The notes below the pieces were generated by a model. It had not been told where the DNA came from. It did not search any database and was given only the letters and a program-made list of their open reading frames with translations. The translations under genes were made by a program, and so were the position numbers. Below, piece after piece: positions 446 through 6,615 of a stretch of DNA of 6,615 nt (positions are counted from its first letter, which is position 1; each line of letters opens with the position of its first letter). Source of the DNA: Candidatus Fermentibacterales bacterium (GTDB taxonomy: Bacteria; Fermentibacterota; Fermentibacteria; Fermentibacterales; JAFGKQ01); contig JAFGKQ010000096.1 in the NCBI GenBank assembly GCA_016928495.1, positions 1 to 6,615 on the forward strand. Direction: 5' to 3'.

Positions 446-469
446 GGACCGGTCCCTACCCGCCGGTCC
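446..469 (-). other. Stem-loop straddling the batD stop codon
   Basis: On the minus strand GGACCGG (463-469) pairs with CCGGTCC (446-452) across a ten-base loop that contains the batD TAG stop (456-458). The lower arm is also part of a perfect ten-base palindrome, GGACCGGTCC, at 446-455. CTTGGCAACTC follows rather than a T-tract, so termination would be weak or factor-dependent. It could mark the 3' end of the operon mRNA or be chance in GC-rich DNA. Confidence 0.3.
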
Positions 470-2156
470 GCCCTGCCCTCGCCTCCAGCGCCTTTTCGAG
501 GCTCTCGGCCAGCTCGCAAGCCCTCTTCGTGGCACGGGCGAGCTCCGAGGGGCCGGGTGCCCTGCCGCAGAGAGCCAGCTCCATGTCCCTCCAGCAGATC
601 AGAATCGAGCGAGTCAGCAACGGATCGATTTCGCGATCCCTGAGGAGCTCTTCGAGACCGTCCCTACCGGAGTGGAGCGGTCTTCCGCAGAGCATCCCGG
701 TCAGGCAGGACTCGAATCGCGTGAAGAGCTCCTCCATGTCGCTGCTCTGGGAGAGGTCCGAGGCGGAGTCCCCCGCAGCCCCGGCCTTCCTTCGGAAGTG
801 AAGCACCAGGAACAGACAGCAGCCCAGAATCGGCAGGGCCAGGATGATCGCGATCAGCAGCTTCTGCGAATGGCTGCCGTCCAGTGCCGGGAGTGGCAGC
901 TCCGGAGTGCTCCGTGCCGGGCGCTCCCGGACCTGAAGCGTGCAGGGCCCGATCCTGCTCTGGTGATACGAGAGGTCCGAGGGGTCGAACCACGCGATGC
1001 TGTCAGGACCGATCACGACGGCGCCGCTGTCGCTCGGGTCGAGCACGAAGTCCCAGGTCGTCGAGCCGCGTGGCCCCTCCCGCTGACCAGCCGGCCTCAG
1101 CTCCGCCGGCCCGGAGACCGTCAGAGCGGGAGGGTGCGGTCGCAGGCTCTCCGCGCCTGGCCCGGAGGCCGTCAGGTGAACACAGGTCTCCCCGGCCTGT
1201 CCCTCCTCGCTCGGGCGTGAGGCCCGGAGAAGCTCGAGACTCAGCGAGTCGATGACCCCTTCGAAGTTGTCTGGCATATCGCTCTCCGGGAACGGGTACA
1301 CGGGCAGGCTCACTCTCCCGCTCTCGATGAGCACCGTGCCATGGTCGAAGAAGCCGAACCGGTCGCGCTGCGCATCCAGGACCACCCCGGGCACGACCAG
1401 GCTCCCGGGAATGGCGGGGGTCAGCTCGAGGGTGACGACGTGCTCCCGCCACAGGCCGGGAGCGACGTACTCCCATTCCATGGTCTCCCTGAACTCCTCC
1501 TGGGTGGCGACCACGTTCTCGCCCGGCATCCAGGAGACGTTGATATGGCTGAACCTCTCCCTGGTGTAGAGGTAGTAGGTGACCAGGAAGGGCATGCCGG
1601 GGAAGTGGGCGCCCTCGAGACCCTCGATGTCCACCCAGGCCGGCTCCGCCCTCGCCGGCCCTCCTGCTGATGCCCCCGGGCCACGTGCCGGAAGCGTTCT
1701 CCTGCCGGTCGTTGCGCCAGATACCTGTGCGTTCCATGGGAGTATGTAAGTCTCCACCGAAGGGAGCGTTACGTAGCCCAGTGAAGACCCGGCATAGACC
1801 TCGAAGGGACCCACGATCGCCGGGCCCGAGGCATCCTCCGCGACCCTGTAGCTGATCGTCACTCTGCGGGTCTGCTCCATGACGGAGCCGCCCGGGGTCT
1901 GGACCGATCTGAAGGAGCTGGAGGACCCCGAGCTCTGGTAGACTGCGAAGCTCAGAGAGGGGATCCTGGAGGTCAGGCTGGTCACCTCGCCCGCGCTGGT
2001 GCTTATCGTTACGCCGAAGGTCTCCCCCGCCCGGAGCGTATCGGGCACCTCGACGACGAACAGGTCTTCCGGGCCCGACAGCGCGGTGCCGGCAAGCGTG
2101 GGCAGGAGAAGCACCTGCACCGCGAGCTGCCGGAGCCGCGCCGGCAGCGTCACCAT
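456..2156 (-). CDS. batD: BatD, membrane-anchored oxygen-tolerance protein
   Basis: This 566-residue protein matches the BatD family in layout and motifs. Residues 1 to about 27 form a signal peptide (MVTLPARLRQ, then a hydrophobic stretch). Three beta-sandwich-like repeats fill the ectodomain. The first begins with VEVPDTLRAGETF. The second contains the VTYYLYTRERF segment and ends in the family-typical proline-rich strand VYPFPESDMPDNFEG (near 286-300). The third (about 323-410) ends in IAWFDPSDLSYHQS. A transmembrane helix spans about 433-453 and is followed by HFRRK and a cytosolic helical tail of about 110 residues. The ATG at 2156 was chosen because it begins the signal peptide and overlaps the batC stop as ATGGTGA. 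The frame is open 140 codons further upstream, but that extension is G/R-rich, out of frame over batC and not believable. The usual GAVG after the proline-rich motif is GVID here. BatD is thought to act with the other Bat proteins at the cell envelope, and its biochemical role is not established. Confidence 0.85.
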   Translation of the reverse strand: MVTLPARLRQLAVQVLLLPTLAGTALSGPEDLFVVEVPDTLRAGETFGVTISTSAGEVTSLTSRIPSLSFAVYQSSGSSSSFRSVQTPGGSVMEQTRRVTISYRVAEDASGPAIVGPFEVYAGSSLGYVTLPSVETYILPWNAQVSGATTGRRTLPARGPGASAGGPARAEPAWVDIEGLEGAHFPGMPFLVTYYLYTRERFSHINVSWMPGENVVATQEEFRETMEWEYVAPGLWREHVVTLELTPAIPGSLVVPGVVLDAQRDRFGFFDHGTVLIESGRVSLPVYPFPESDMPDNFEGVIDSLSLELLRASRPSEEGQAGETCVHLTASGPGAESLRPHPPALTVSGPAELRPAGQREGPRGSTTWDFVLDPSDSGAVVIGPDSIAWFDPSDLSYHQSRIGPCTLQVRERPARSTPELPLPALDGSHSQKLLIAIILALPILGCCLFLVLHFRRKAGAAGDSASDLSQSSDMEELFTRFESCLTGMLCGRPLHSGRDGLEELLRDREIDPLLTRSILICWRDMELALCGRAPGPSELARATKRACELAESLEKALEARAGRTGG

Positions 2157-2968
2157 TCCGGTCCCGCCGGCTGCGCCCCTCTGCGGCCCGACGTCGAGTC
2201 CTGCTCGACCGGCGCCTCCTCGATCAGATCCAGGATCGCCTGAGCCTCCTCTGGAGTCATCTCCCCCTGCTGAGAGACCAGGCTCTCCAGCATCTCCTCC
2301 AGCTCGTCCATCCTCTCCTGCCGTTCCTCTCCGGCCGCATCCCGGCTCTCTTCTTCGGGATGCTCTTCCCGGTCGTCCGGAGGAGGCTCCCGACCATCTT
2401 CCTCCTGGCCGCCGCCGGAAGGCTGCTCCTCCTGCTGATCCTCGCCCGACTGCCCCTGATCTTCCTGCTGCTCCTCCTGCCCCCCGCCATCGCTCTGGCT
2501 CTGGTCCCTCAACCAGTCGAGCGCCACCTCCAGGTTCCAGAGGTCCTCCGGCGTGGCCCCGGGCGGGGACACGCACTTGTTGCGAAGGATGGCCACGGCG
2601 GACTGCACTTTGCCGGAGTCCAGGCCATCCATCCCGGAGGCGAGCATCGCAGCGGCTCTGGCAGAGGCCATGCTGTCGGAGGAAACCGACTCGAAGCTGT
2701 CGGGGAGCATGGACAGGATGCTGTCGCAGGCCGTGCGGGTGGAGTCCTCGAGGAGCATCGCCAGGGCCAGGTCATATCCCAGCCCGTGCTTGTGAGGCAT
2801 CCTGTGCCAGAGCTGCTCGAGGCTGACACGCGCCGAGGAGTAGTCGCCGGCCTCGAAGCTCTCCATTGCGCTCTCGAGGATCTCCAGAGCTGGTGAGAGC
2901 CCCCCCGCGATGCAGAGGGCCGGGATCAGGGCGATCAGGATCATCGAGAGGACCGCCCGCACGGTCAT
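2150..2968 (-). CDS. batC: BatC, exported TPR protein with an acidic Q/E-rich linker
   Basis: This 272-residue protein begins with a signal peptide (residues 1 to about 22, MTVRAVLSMILIALIPALC). C19 is preceded by PAL, which is not a lipobox, so it is probably not a lipoprotein. Residues 25-155 are helical and TPR-like: AMESFEAGDYSSARVSLEQL, then YDLALAMLLEDS, and finally PEDLWNLEVALDWL, which corresponds to the 'NLE.AL' motif at the end of the BatC TPR block. Residues about 155-218 are a low-complexity Q/E/D/G linker. A conserved BatC-type tail follows: ERMDELEEMLESL, then MTPEEAQAILDLIEE (237-251). The ATG at 2968 overlaps the batB stop as ATGA and has a strong AGGAGG five bases upstream. 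The stop overlaps the batD start. BatC probably scaffolds the BatA, BatB and BatD ectodomains through its TPRs, which is inferred from the family. Confidence 0.85.
   Translation of the reverse strand: MTVRAVLSMILIALIPALCIAGGLSPALEILESAMESFEAGDYSSARVSLEQLWHRMPHKHGLGYDLALAMLLEDSTRTACDSILSMLPDSFESVSSDSMASARAAAMLASGMDGLDSGKVQSAVAILRNKCVSPPGATPEDLWNLEVALDWLRDQSQSDGGGQEEQQEDQGQSGEDQQEEQPSGGGQEEDGREPPPDDREEHPEEESRDAAGEERQERMDELEEMLESLVSQQGEMTPEEAQAILDLIEEAPVEQDSTSGRRGAQPAGPEW
2315..2506 (-). repeat. Low-complexity Q/E/G-rich linker coding region inside batC
   Basis: These bases encode batC residues 155-218, almost entirely Q, E, D, G, S, P and R, with GGGQEE occurring twice (161-166 and 185-190). 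The bias toward GAG, CAG and GGC codons keeps the other minus-strand frame open too, which produces the false N-terminal extension of batD. Acidic Gln-rich linkers are common in BatC proteins and probably form a flexible, strongly negative hinge. Confidence 0.6.
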
Positions 2969-3948
2969 CTGCGCCTCCTCTCCAGGACCGTTGCGGCGAG
3001 CAGGAACAGCATTCCCGCACCCAGGAGGATCTGGAATCTCCTCCCCTGAGTGGCAGCGTCACGAAGCTCGGGGAGGCGCCAACTGCTCCTGGCAAGCATC
3101 TCGCGCATCAGCCAGGGGAGATCCGGCGTCTCGGCGAGGGCAGCGTAGAACCCGCCCGTCTCCTCGGCAATCCTGCGGAGGACCTCGTCCTCGAGCGCGG
3201 TTTTCACGGTGTCTCCATCAGCGGTCATCAGGGGCTCTCCCGAGGGACCAGGAACCGGAGCGGGGACGTTACCCCCCACTCCTACCGTGACTACCGGCAT
3301 CTCCGACGATCTCGCGGCCTCTATCGTGCTCTCGATCTCGTGGTCGTGAAAACCGCCGTCGGAGAAGACGATCCCCACGCGGGACTCCAGGGCCATCTCC
3401 GGGGCGGCGCTCTCCATCACGTCGATCAGGCCTCCGATCTGGGTCCCGAGCCTCGGATCGGCTATATCGCCGGGTTCCCTGGGAAGCCTGGAAAGGAAGT
3501 ACTCCCCGTCGAGCGTTAGGGGTACGGCAACCCTGGAGTAACTGGCGAATAGAACGAGAGATAGCCGCACGTCCGGCAGCCCGCGGACGAGCTGCTCGAT
3601 GGCCGCCGCGGCCCTGCCGAGCCTGGTCGGGGCCTCATCCGTGGATCTCATGCTCCCGGAGATGTCCAGCGCGATGACCAGATTGCTGCCTCCAGAGGCC
3701 TGCTGCATCGTGCCAGTTCCCCAGACCGGCCCGGCTGCGGCCAGGATGCAGAGCGCGATCCCCGCGCTCCAGAACATCCTGGAGAGAGTCCTGGGCGGAG
3801 GCACCGTCACGCTGACCTTCTCCCACAGGACGGGCCGGACGAATGTCCGCAGGCTCTTCAGCTCGCGTGCGAGCCACGTGGACCTGAGCCAGAGCAGCAG
3901 CGGTATCGCGAACAGGCCGATCAGCAGAAGAGGGCGGTCGAAGCTCAC
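2965..3948 (-). CDS. batB: BatB, membrane-anchored VWA-domain protein
   Basis: This 327-residue protein has the BatB layout. It begins with two membrane segments (about 5-22 and 59-74) separated by a short basic stretch. A von Willebrand factor A domain of about 90-270 follows, and a third membrane segment (about 307-322) ends in ERRRR. The metal-binding MIDAS site is intact: D95-I-S97-G-S99, a threonine at 169 in LGTQIGG, and D197 in VFSDGG. The stretch GEPLMTADGDTVKTALEDE, followed by LRRIAEETGGFY, is the characteristic BatB segment late in the VWA domain. Translation begins at a GTG at 3948, one base after the batA stop, with GGGGGA five bases upstream. The stop overlaps the batC start as ATGA. 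BatB is expected to work beside BatA at the inner membrane, presenting a metal-dependent binding surface, possibly remodelled by a MoxR ATPase. That role is inferred from the family. Confidence 0.9.
   Translation of the reverse strand: MSFDRPLLLIGLFAIPLLLWLRSTWLARELKSLRTFVRPVLWEKVSVTVPPPRTLSRMFWSAGIALCILAAAGPVWGTGTMQQASGGSNLVIALDISGSMRSTDEAPTRLGRAAAAIEQLVRGLPDVRLSLVLFASYSRVAVPLTLDGEYFLSRLPREPGDIADPRLGTQIGGLIDVMESAAPEMALESRVGIVFSDGGFHDHEIESTIEAARSSEMPVVTVGVGGNVPAPVPGPSGEPLMTADGDTVKTALEDEVLRRIAEETGGFYAALAETPDLPWLMREMLARSSWRLPELRDAATQGRRFQILLGAGMLFLLAATVLERRRR
2974..2979 (-). promoter_or_regulatory. Strong ribosome binding site of batC
   Basis: AGGAGG lies five bases before the ATG at 2968. It is the strongest Shine-Dalgarno match in the operon and sits inside the end of batB. 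It supports the chosen batC start and may let batC be made in excess over its neighbours. Confidence 0.75.
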
Positions 3949-3949
3949 C

Positions 3950-4903
3950 TCAGTCCCCCACCACCCTCCAGGGCCCCCATCGCAGCACGATCGAGAGCAG
4001 GATCATGATCAGCCCGGGCAGCAGGAAGAGCCTGTACTGGTCCCTGAAGACGAAGAGCCCTTCGTCGGGGAGAGTCGATGCCTCCAGGCTGTCTATAGCC
4101 TGGTAGACCTCCTGCAGATCAGCGGCGGAGTAGACATCGAACAGCCTGCCTCCGGTTATGGACGCGATGGTCGCCAGGGTCTCGCGGTCCACTCCGTATC
4201 CTGAAGCTGCCTCGGCGGACAGCGGATCTCCCATGGCTACCGTGTAGACCCTGAGGCTGTCAGCGTGAAGGGTCTGTATGGCGCGCGCCACGGTTATGGG
4301 GTCTATCATCCCCGATGTGTCGGTACCATCGGAGATCAGGATGATGACTCGGCTCGGGGTCCTGGAGTAGCTGAGCCCTCTGGCGGCCGTCGCCAGCCCG
4401 GAGCCGATGGCCGTGAGGTCCGGGAGATGGCCCAGCCCGGCCTTGCGGATAAGGGCCGTCAGGGTGTGGTGGTCGGAGGTCGGAGGGCAGAGTATCAGGG
4501 GCTCTCCGGCGTAGATCACGAGCCCTATCCTGTCGTTGGGCCTGCCTTCGATGAAGCTCAGGGCAGCCTCCCTGGCGGCACCCAGCCTGCTCGGGTAGTA
4601 GTCCGTGGCATCCATGCTGCTGGAGACGTCGAGGGTTATCATCATGTCCACGCCCTCGCCGGCTGCCGGAAGCCGCTCGTAGCCCGATTGCGGACGCGCC
4701 AGCGCGATGGCCAGCATGATCATGCCGAGCCAGAAGAGGACGGGCGGCAGATGAAGGAGCCTCTGTCTTCCCCCCCGGAGCCCGGACACGTCGAAGGGAC
4801 CGGTGAAGGTCTGCCCCGGGCAGGTCCCGCTCTTTCGCAGGCCTGCCGCCAGCATGACTATGGGAGCCAGCAGCAGCAGGTACCAGGAAGCGAAGCGAAT
4901 CAC
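3950..4903 (-). CDS. batA: BatA, membrane-anchored VWA-domain protein
   Basis: This is a 317-residue protein when started at the GTG at 4903. Membrane segments lie at about 5-22, 52-70 and 290-308. The VWA domain (about 86-275) carries the MIDAS residues D92-V-S94-S-S96, T164 in LTAIGSG and D192 in LISDGTD. Typical BatA signatures are ALARPQSG just before the domain, DYYPSRLGAAREAA, RPNDRIGLVIYAGE and a C-terminal RLFLLPGLIMILL helix. The usual DVSGSM reads DVSSSM here, which keeps the metal ligands. The frame continues 40 codons upstream with G/R-rich shadow sequence. GTG 4903 was preferred because it overlaps the preceding stop as GTGA and begins the first membrane helix. GTG 4912 and 4915 are alternatives. 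Family knowledge suggests that BatA and BatB form an envelope complex linked to stress tolerance, and the exact client is unknown. Confidence 0.9.
   Translation of the reverse strand: MIRFASWYLLLLAPIVMLAAGLRKSGTCPGQTFTGPFDVSGLRGGRQRLLHLPPVLFWLGMIMLAIALARPQSGYERLPAAGEGVDMMITLDVSSSMDATDYYPSRLGAAREAALSFIEGRPNDRIGLVIYAGEPLILCPPTSDHHTLTALIRKAGLGHLPDLTAIGSGLATAARGLSYSRTPSRVIILISDGTDTSGMIDPITVARAIQTLHADSLRVYTVAMGDPLSAEAASGYGVDRETLATIASITGGRLFDVYSAADLQEVYQAIDSLEASTLPDEGLFVFRDQYRLFLLPGLIMILLSIVLRWGPWRVVGD
3954..3959 (-). promoter_or_regulatory. Ribosome binding site supporting the GTG start of batB
   Basis: GGGGGA lies five bases before the GTG at 3948, within the last codons of batA. No ATG lies near this point in the batB frame, and the hydrophobic N-terminus begins right here, so this site decides the start. 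Confidence 0.55.
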
Positions 4904-5826
4904 GGCTTCCACCACTCGTCCAGCAGAGCAGCCAGGGACCTGATGTCCCTCTCGGCCCGCTCTCTGCTCGTGCCCCAGGCCGCGTACCTCTGAAGCCTCA
5001 CTTCTTCCACCAGAGGGGACCACTTCTCGATGAAGCTCCTGCCTTCCGGACCTGCCTCCCCCAGCCTCCTGCCCATCTGCCTGTGTGTCAGGGCATCACA
5101 CGCCAGGCCGAACCTCCTGCCGACGAGGAGCCTCTGGATCCTGTCCATGGAGGCGTAGAGCGCCGGCCAGTCGCCTGATGCGTATTCCGGCGACTCCAGG
5201 AGATCCAGCGCCATGGAGGATGCCGGCCGGCCGGGAGCAGGGCCGTCGAACCCGGTCCCCGGTCGTTCCCGCGAGCGCCTCCGGAGCACCAGGGCTGTGG
5301 CAAGAGCGGCTGCGGGCAGCGCCAGAACCAGCAGCAGGACAAGGACGGTCCGGTCCGCTGGAGCGCTGCTCCACTCGTCCCAGAACTCCAGGCTTCGAAG
5401 GTAGTCACCAGGGAGCCCCGGCGGAATCCGGACGGGAGCCGGGCCCGGAAAGGGCTGCACGGTGAAGCAGAGGGTGTCCGGCCTGACCCGACCCACCACG
5501 ACGGCGGGTGGCTCGACCCACACCGTGTCCTCAGCCGACTGAGCGAAGCCCTGAGCGCTGCTGCGGATTGCGGGCACAGCGGGCAGAGGCAGAGTGTCCA
5601 GGTCCAGGGCTATCAGGCGTATGACGCCGTTGTCCTGGGACACCGGATAGTAGGACGGGGCTGCTGCCAGGCTGTCCAGCCGGTATCCCCGGGGCACCTC
5701 GTAGACGACGGTGAGTGTGTCTCCGAGAAGAGAGGGTGTCTCCCCACTCCCCTGCTGAGCCTGTGCGGGAGCCGCCAGGGCCGGGGCGAGCAGCAGGAGG
5801 GTGATCGAGAGCGAGCAAACCCGCAT
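4900..5826 (-). CDS. Single-pass membrane protein of the Bat operon, function unknown
   Basis: This 308-residue protein is not one I can name, but its position between DUF58 and batA matches the uncharacterised membrane protein found there in FCB-type Bat operons. In some other bacteria a DUF4381-type protein takes that place. Residues 1-23 are a signal peptide with likely cleavage after AQA. An extracytoplasmic part of about 24-155 has beta-type sequence (DTLTVVYEVPRGYRLDSL), suggesting a small sandwich domain. A membrane helix covers about 160-181 and is followed by LRRRSR. A cytosolic helical domain of about 205-306 includes LLVGRRFGLACDALTHRQ and VEEVRLQRYAAWG, resembling the late 'KFA/RYA' segment of Bat-associated tails. 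The ATG at 5826 shares one base with the DUF58 stop (TGATG), with AGGA ten bases upstream. It ends in LLDEWWKP and its stop overlaps the batA start. It could couple the cytosolic DUF58/MoxR parts to the BatA/BatB complex, which is inference. Confidence 0.8.
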   Translation of the reverse strand: MRVCSLSITLLLLAPALAAPAQAQQGSGETPSLLGDTLTVVYEVPRGYRLDSLAAAPSYYPVSQDNGVIRLIALDLDTLPLPAVPAIRSSAQGFAQSAEDTVWVEPPAVVVGRVRPDTLCFTVQPFPGPAPVRIPPGLPGDYLRSLEFWDEWSSAPADRTVLVLLLVLALPAAALATALVLRRRSRERPGTGFDGPAPGRPASSMALDLLESPEYASGDWPALYASMDRIQRLLVGRRFGLACDALTHRQMGRRLGEAGPEGRSFIEKWSPLVEEVRLQRYAAWGTSRERAERDIRSLAALLDEWWKP

Positions 5827-6615
5827 CAGTGGAACATCCTGCGCCTTCTGGTCTTGAAGAAGCGCCTCAGGGGCAGGACCAGGTCGTCGGCTGTGGAGAT
5901 GCTGACCAGATCGAACCTGTTGCTCCTGCAGAGCTGCTCCCTGACGCTCTGGAGCTCGGCGACCCGCTCCATGAAGCCGCGTCTCCAGCGGGCAGAGCCG
6001 GTGTCGACTACCCGGACCAGGCCTGTCTCCGGGTTGCGAAACCTCATCAGGCCGAGGTCCGGAACGCTGACCTCTCTGGGATCGAAGACATGGATGCCAA
6101 CCAGGTCATGCCTTCCTGAAGCCGCCCTGAGCAGGCTGCCGCCGCTGGTGAACAGGAAGTCGCTGACCAGGAACAGCAGGGCCCTTCGGTGCAGCACCCT
6201 GCCCAGGTAGGAGAGCGCGGAGTCAACGTTCGCGGCTTCCTCTCTCCCCCCGGAGAGCAGCACCTTCCTGATGAGAACCAGAGCGTGGGAGCGGCCCTTC
6301 TCCGCGGGCATGTAGTCCACGACATCGCTGGCGAAGGTGATCAGGCCGACTCTGTCGTTGTTGCGGACGGCTGCGAGAGCGAGAAGCGCGGTGACCTCCG
6401 CCACGCGGTCGGCCTTGGTCAGCGACATCGAGCCGAAGCCCAGACTGCCCGAGAGGTCCACGGCGATGATGACGTGAAGCTCGCGCTCCTCGGCGAAGAC
6501 CTTCACGTGAGGATGCCCCGTCCTGGCCGTCACGTTCCAGTCGATCAGCCTCGGATCGTCTCCCTCCACGTAGGGCCGGACCTCCGAGAACTCCATGCCC
6601 CGGCCGCGGAACACG
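5826..6615 (-). CDS. DUF58 family protein, N-terminus cut by the window edge
   Basis: The visible 262 residues, counted from the codon at 6614, carry the full DUF58 signature: FRGRGMEFSEVRPYVEGDD, then PRLIDWNVTART and VKVFAEERE. These are followed by a VWA-like fold with the metal-site motif D53-L-S55-G-S57 and a later LVSDF (D152). The protein ends in a basic tail, FFKTRRRRMFH. Family members normally have about 20-40 residues before the GRG.EF motif, so the true start lies beyond 6615. The GTG at 6612-6614 is almost certainly an internal valine. There is no signal peptide or membrane helix in the visible part, which fits a cytosolic protein. DUF58 genes usually directly follow a MoxR AAA+ ATPase gene and are thought to act as its partner. 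The stop overlaps the next start as TGATG, so it belongs to the same operon. Confidence 0.9.
   Translation of the reverse strand, partial: VFRGRGMEFSEVRPYVEGDDPRLIDWNVTARTGHPHVKVFAEERELHVIIAVDLSGSLGFGSMSLTKADRVAEVTALLALAAVRNNDRVGLITFASDVVDYMPAEKGRSHALVLIRKVLLSGGREEAANVDSALSYLGRVLHRRALLFLVSDFLFTSGGSLLRAASGRHDLVGIHVFDPREVSVPDLGLMRFRNPETGLVRVVDTGSARWRRGFMERVAELQSVREQLCRSNRFDLVSISTADDLVLPLRRFFKTRRRRMFH

Follow-up and report, generated by a model that had tools for sequence, protein, structure and literature searches.

The bat operon of Fermentibacterota encodes, between its DUF58 and BatA genes, a 308-amino-acid protein that on sequence comparison is best read as an ancient short paralogue of BatD. 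We place at roughly 0.7 the probability that it represents, in Fermentibacterota, a conserved, unnamed Bat-operon protein, most likely a shortened duplicate of BatD. Synteny, domain order, tail homology and tail conservation are seen directly, and homology of the ectodomain in Bacteroidota only; the topology, complex formation and docking proposed below are inferred. The relationship between the protein of this slot and BatD most likely remains recognisable in Bacteroidota but has eroded in the window, by which we mean the whole stretch of 6,615 nucleotides analysed here.

The operon occupies the minus strand of the window in the order DUF58, 308-aa protein, BatA, BatB, BatC and BatD, with overlaps of a few bases between most adjacent genes. 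The DUF58 protein (5826..6614) is VWA-like and truncated at the window edge, and the portion inside the window has no transmembrane (TM) segment; its stop codon overlaps the ATG of the 308-aa protein (4900..5826) by one base. BatA (3950..4915) carries a VWA domain lying between TM2 and TM3, and BatB (2965..3948), the other VWA protein, has three TM segments. BatC (2150..2968) combines a weak TPR match with an N-terminal hydrophobic segment and a Gln/Glu-rich region; this low-complexity stretch falls at 2150-2576 of the window, and in a relative (L032) the related BatC has near-exact DQNEDQQ repeats. BatD (566 aa; 456..2156) begins with an ATG at 2156, and the list of open reading frames also holds a longer BatD frame that starts from a GTG at 2576 and runs through BatC.

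The 308-aa protein, lying between DUF58 and BatA in the slot that defines this member of Bat operons, is an ordinary operon member. Its orthologue was found in 39 of the 42 genomes of the phylum examined; relatives are named Candidatus Aegiribacteria, Sabulitectum and Fermentibacteria. The order of the operon was constant in the 32 stretches compared, apart from genes truncated where a contig stops and, in a single genome, frames that are split. In genome G026 (stretch L057) the slot protein and BatD are each split over two frames and a BatB reading frame was not called separately, reflecting either sequencing error or decay. The relative L032, which has more upstream sequence than the window, encodes MoxR immediately upstream of DUF58.

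The initial annotation of this DNA had noted a common build in the 308-aa protein and BatD, and this was borne out: each opens with a hydrophobic segment at the N-terminus and a region predicted as a beta ectodomain, followed by a single TM helix with basic residues behind it and, last, a helical tail. In the 308-aa protein a beta ectodomain (residues 28-117) is followed by a Pro-rich pre-TM stretch, a TM helix at about 159-180, a basic anchor and a helical tail (203-305). BatD has three beta domains (about 28-142, 170-288 and 289-412), a TM helix at about 429-456 and a tail at 465-562. AlphaFold2 models built from 32 sequences of the 308-aa protein and 25 of BatD had pLDDT values of 80 (tail mostly above 90) and 81, respectively. 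The tail of the 308-aa protein (residues 203-306; 4909..5220, minus strand), supported by predicted helices, conservation and hhalign matches, was modelled as helices 203-217, 220-239, 248-257, 260-282 and 288-305. That of BatD (residues 465-562; 471..764, minus strand), supported by predicted helices and by ungapped collinearity with the Bacteroidota BatD tail in a full-length alignment, was modelled as helices 474-490, 497-507, 512-530 and 536-564. From helix 220-239 of the 308-aa protein and helix 474-490 of BatD onward, the two models share a long-short-long-long order of helices with similar loops, which is an agreement of order and not of fold; such a four-helix order is common, and this weighs against reading it as a sign of a short BatD paralogue.

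A fold search of the 308-aa tail against the PDB gave 3mfn as the best match (Z 9.4, rmsd 2.7, 101 aligned residues), with HEPN-type bundles at Z 8.7 and 8.6; for this predicted model, these matches indicate a likeness to general four-helix bundles and stay under the level at which a match says more than that the helices are arranged in a common way. The corresponding list for BatD was filled by Ig-like domains, and a sequence search of the PDB with the slot-protein profile returned no match. Among the domains of BatD, conservation is highest in the tail; in the 308-aa protein it is highest in the tail and the pre-TM stretch. Conserved polar residues are present in the slot tail.

From a by-eye alignment of the two tails, in which L223, G236-R237, D244, L246, W269 and E274 of the 308-aa protein faced L477, G491-R492, D499, L501, W522 and E526 of BatD, it had been proposed that the two are paralogous subunits with tails that dock on the same cytosolic partner, perhaps DUF58 or MoxR. 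All of these residues are at the numbers given, and on the BatD side L477, G491, L501, W522 and E526 are conserved in the family, as a genuine docking motif common to both tails would have it, while of 27 sequences only 9 have R492 and 6 have D499. In the 308-aa family five of the facing residues lack conservation: of 32 sequences, 4 have G236, 3 have R237, 2 have D244, 1 has W269 and 2 have E274. What is conserved in this tail instead is W220, Y224, R232, F239, A245, T247, Q250, E275 and a block LQRYAxWG. A pairwise Smith-Waterman alignment of the two window tails scored 23, a value equalled or exceeded in 1683 of 2000 shuffles. The GR-x6-D-x-L match is expected by chance, because 98% of shuffled tails give at least four identities in an ungapped window of 11 residues on nearby diagonals.

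The register of the by-eye alignment also differs from that obtained through the Bacteroidota tail, which pairs Y224 of the 308-aa protein with M474 of BatD. There L223, G236, D244 and L246 fall at about 473, 486, 494 and 496 rather than 477, 491, 499 and 501, and W269 and E274 at about 519 and 524 rather than 522 and 526. The earlier register is thus displaced by 2-5 residues; for BatD, this correction depends on a tail that aligns weakly, although the full-length alignment around it is strong. With residues that are not conserved, a match at chance level and a wrong register, the shared motif falls away, and we regard a genuine conserved docking motif at these positions as extremely improbable.

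Direct comparison of the two window proteins likewise gave no signal. A profile-profile comparison of the two tails, which the initial annotation had named as the check on its proposal and by which its direct claim fails, returned probabilities of 0.2-0.9%, with nothing detectable; hhalign found no match between them in either local or global mode, and 47 of 120 column shuffles scored at least as high as the real pair. A comparison of the 308-aa profile with the C-terminal part of BatD aligned the TM segment and nothing else. The 308-aa ectodomain, predicted as a beta domain by AlphaFold2, had no profile signal against any BatD domain or against the Bacteroidota slot ectodomain, its score against the latter lying inside the shuffle range (19/60). 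No Pfam family was assigned to the protein, and matches to the BatD family PF13584 were absent from its 32 homologues. Merging the slot and BatD profiles still did not bring out the BatD tail of the window.

The tails are connected through Bacteroidota, where the comparisons rest on five operons from plasmid records. Across the TM segment and tail, the 308-aa protein and its Bacteroidota slot counterpart matched at 92.4%. The 308-aa tail alone matched the Bacteroidota slot tail at 87-89% in hhalign and the Bacteroidota BatD tail at 66-68% over 63 columns, and not one of 120 shuffles equalled these tail matches. As decoys, 40 real windows from other operon and neighbour proteins were used; none exceeded 0.9% with the 308-aa tail or 3% with that of Bacteroidota BatD, and one decoy, a C-terminal window of MoxR, reached 31% against the Bacteroidota slot tail. 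Searched against 1556 Fermentibacterota open reading frames, an HMM of the five Bacteroidota BatD tails gave its highest ranks to 308-aa homologues, weakly (best E 0.07), and barely found the Fermentibacterota BatD of those operons (one match, E 91). The divergent tail is therefore that of BatD, since the 308-aa homologues outrank BatD from the same operons with this HMM.

Between full-length profiles of the window BatD and Bacteroidota BatD the match was 99.6% along 498 columns, in a collinear alignment that runs without gaps into and across the tail, and by domain the first (D1-B1) and third (D3-B3) pairs matched at 97.0% and 96.9%. The window BatD matched PF13584 at 8.7e-5, just below the cut-off. 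By these sequence profiles it is an orthologue of Bacteroidota BatD, despite a divergent tail that alone matched the Bacteroidota BatD tail weakly (1.2%, 3/120 shuffles as good).

Within Bacteroidota, the slot protein itself is linked to BatD along its length. Two of the slot proteins match PF13584 at 1.8e-4 and 6.8e-4, just below the cut-off, and that of Bacteroides finegoldii is named 'BatD family protein' in RefSeq. The Bacteroidota slot ectodomain matched BatD domain 1 at 95.8% (0/60 shuffles as good), and the whole slot protein matched the last (third) beta domain, TM segment and tail of BatD at 91.9% over 247 columns. Its tail matched the Bacteroidota BatD tail at 81-88%, with none of 80 shuffles as good.

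The slot is occupied in the annotated MoxR-DUF58-bat operons examined from Bacteroidota, Fusobacteriota, Spirochaetota and Pseudomonadota. The gene is present in Prevotella, Bacteroides, Parabacteroides, Cetobacterium, Leptospira and Paroceanicella, and is annotated as DUF4381 in Vibrio, Legionella, Catenovulum, Sagittula and Persicobacter. Several variations were seen in these operons. In two from Prevotella (L097 8560-11136 and L109 5926-8550) the C-terminus of BatD is fused to a TPR/SH3-like part, which in Bacteroides and Parabacteroides is a separate gene after BatD. Persicobacter psychrovividus has three MoxR-DUF58-DUF4381-VWA-VWA-BatD operons on three plasmids (L117, L118 and L119), each near an arylsulfatase gene. 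In several operons of Pseudomonadota and Persicobacter (L113, L114, L117 and L121) the second VWA protein is long, at about 540-700 aa, and a TPR gene of its own is missing, so that BatB and BatC look as though they had merged. On a Paracoccus plasmid (L104 1-9701), VWA, VWA and BatD genes lie directly behind IS66 and IS3 transposases, in a stretch without MoxR, DUF58 or slot gene. Scans of viral contigs yielded no useful bat operons.

Compared with the families around it, the 308-aa protein resembles BatD (PF13584) of the Bacteroides aerotolerance operon in being, by prediction, a single-span protein with a periplasmic beta region, a TM helix, a basic anchor and a cytosolic helical tail, the last homologous to that of BatD through Bacteroidota. 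It differs in having one beta domain and, throughout the phylum, no match to PF13584, whereas BatD has three beta domains and stands at the end of the operon. The Bacteroidota protein between DUF58 and BatA, named 'hypothetical protein' or 'BatD family protein' in RefSeq, shares the slot and the 92% match over TM segment and tail; unlike the 308-aa protein it retains a recognisable BatD ectodomain, and in some cases it bears an extra C-terminal hydrophobic segment past the tail. DUF7939 (PF25607), the tail of gammaproteobacterial BatD, is helical and follows the BatD TM segment as in the window, but has no significant profile match to the window tails. DUF4129 was considered as a third tail of this kind and rejected, no match over the cut-off being found in the phylum.

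Could the 308-aa protein and BatD instead be unrelated single-span proteins with only a general build in common, a non-homologous protein having taken over the slot in this phylum? The silence of the direct comparisons, in both tail and ectodomain, and the shuffle-level pairwise tail match are what such a takeover would leave. It would not account for the matches of the 308-aa protein to the Bacteroidota slot protein (92%) and BatD tail (63-68%), which stand above both shuffles and real decoys, nor for the constant synteny, and we consider it unlikely. The proposal of paralogous subunits is thus supported in part and indirectly, by the Bacteroidota slot and BatD matches and the order of helices, while the residue argument and the direct match of the window tails fail.

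A different assignment, which is compatible with a link to BatD, would place the 308-aa protein in the DUF4381 family (PF14316), the occupant of the same slot in Pseudomonadota and Persicobacter. DUF4381 shares a TM segment and helical tail with the 308-aa protein, and sub-threshold matches occur in 11 of its 32 homologues (best 1.6e-5). DUF4381 proteins are short and lack the beta ectodomain, and in none of the 42 phylum genomes does the family exceed the Pfam gathering cut-off (best 25.8 bits against 27.2), weak matches of this model being common in control genomes. Moreover, the 308-aa tail matches the gammaproteobacterial DUF4381 tail at shuffle level (42/120). That DUF4381 tail matched the BatD/DUF7939 tail weakly (2-5%, 0/80 shuffles as good) and over the last helices only, and neither gave anything significant against the window tails. 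Membership in DUF4381 is a tentative possibility that we do not claim.

With a short BatD paralogue as the preferred reading, predicted topology suggests how the operon products might be arranged. Positive charges are predicted to put the TM1-TM2 loop of BatA and BatB in the cytosol, and their VWA domains would therefore be periplasmic. MoxR is, by family, a soluble ATPase. With periplasmic VWA domains, a DUF58 protein that has no TM segment in the part seen and a soluble MoxR, BatD and the slot protein would therefore be the members with a folded domain on each side of the membrane. We propose that these two are the single-span members of a complex. On the periplasmic side their beta domains would neighbour the BatA and BatB VWA domains, and on the cytosolic side their tails would lie alongside MoxR and the TM-less DUF58. 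The tails would then serve as docking points that pass the action of the MoxR ATPase, via DUF58, across the membrane. The cytosolic tail of the 308-aa protein could reach MoxR-DUF58, and its conservation and polar residues, together with topology and synteny, may fit a putative docking on MoxR or DUF58. A bolder and rather doubtful extension is that BatD and the slot protein form a paired transmembrane relay on one MoxR-DUF58 machine, carrying ATPase work to BatA and BatB, with the tail as a general adaptor module.

Bat operons have a known link with oxidative stress: deletion of batA in R. anatipestifer leads to poorer survival under it (PMC11834572), and bat deletions have also been studied in Leptospira (PMC3557215); the passages of these two papers on the deletions do not treat the slot protein. 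Our literature search found no paper on this protein, with DUF4381 mentioned only in passing, once in each of two papers. To our knowledge, the mode of action of MoxR and its VWA partners in Bat operons is not settled. Should a gene annotated mostly as 'hypothetical' prove to encode a short paralogue of BatD, the operon would have two matching transmembrane subunits, and these would suggest a specific, testable route from a cytosolic ATPase to the periplasmic VWA proteins.
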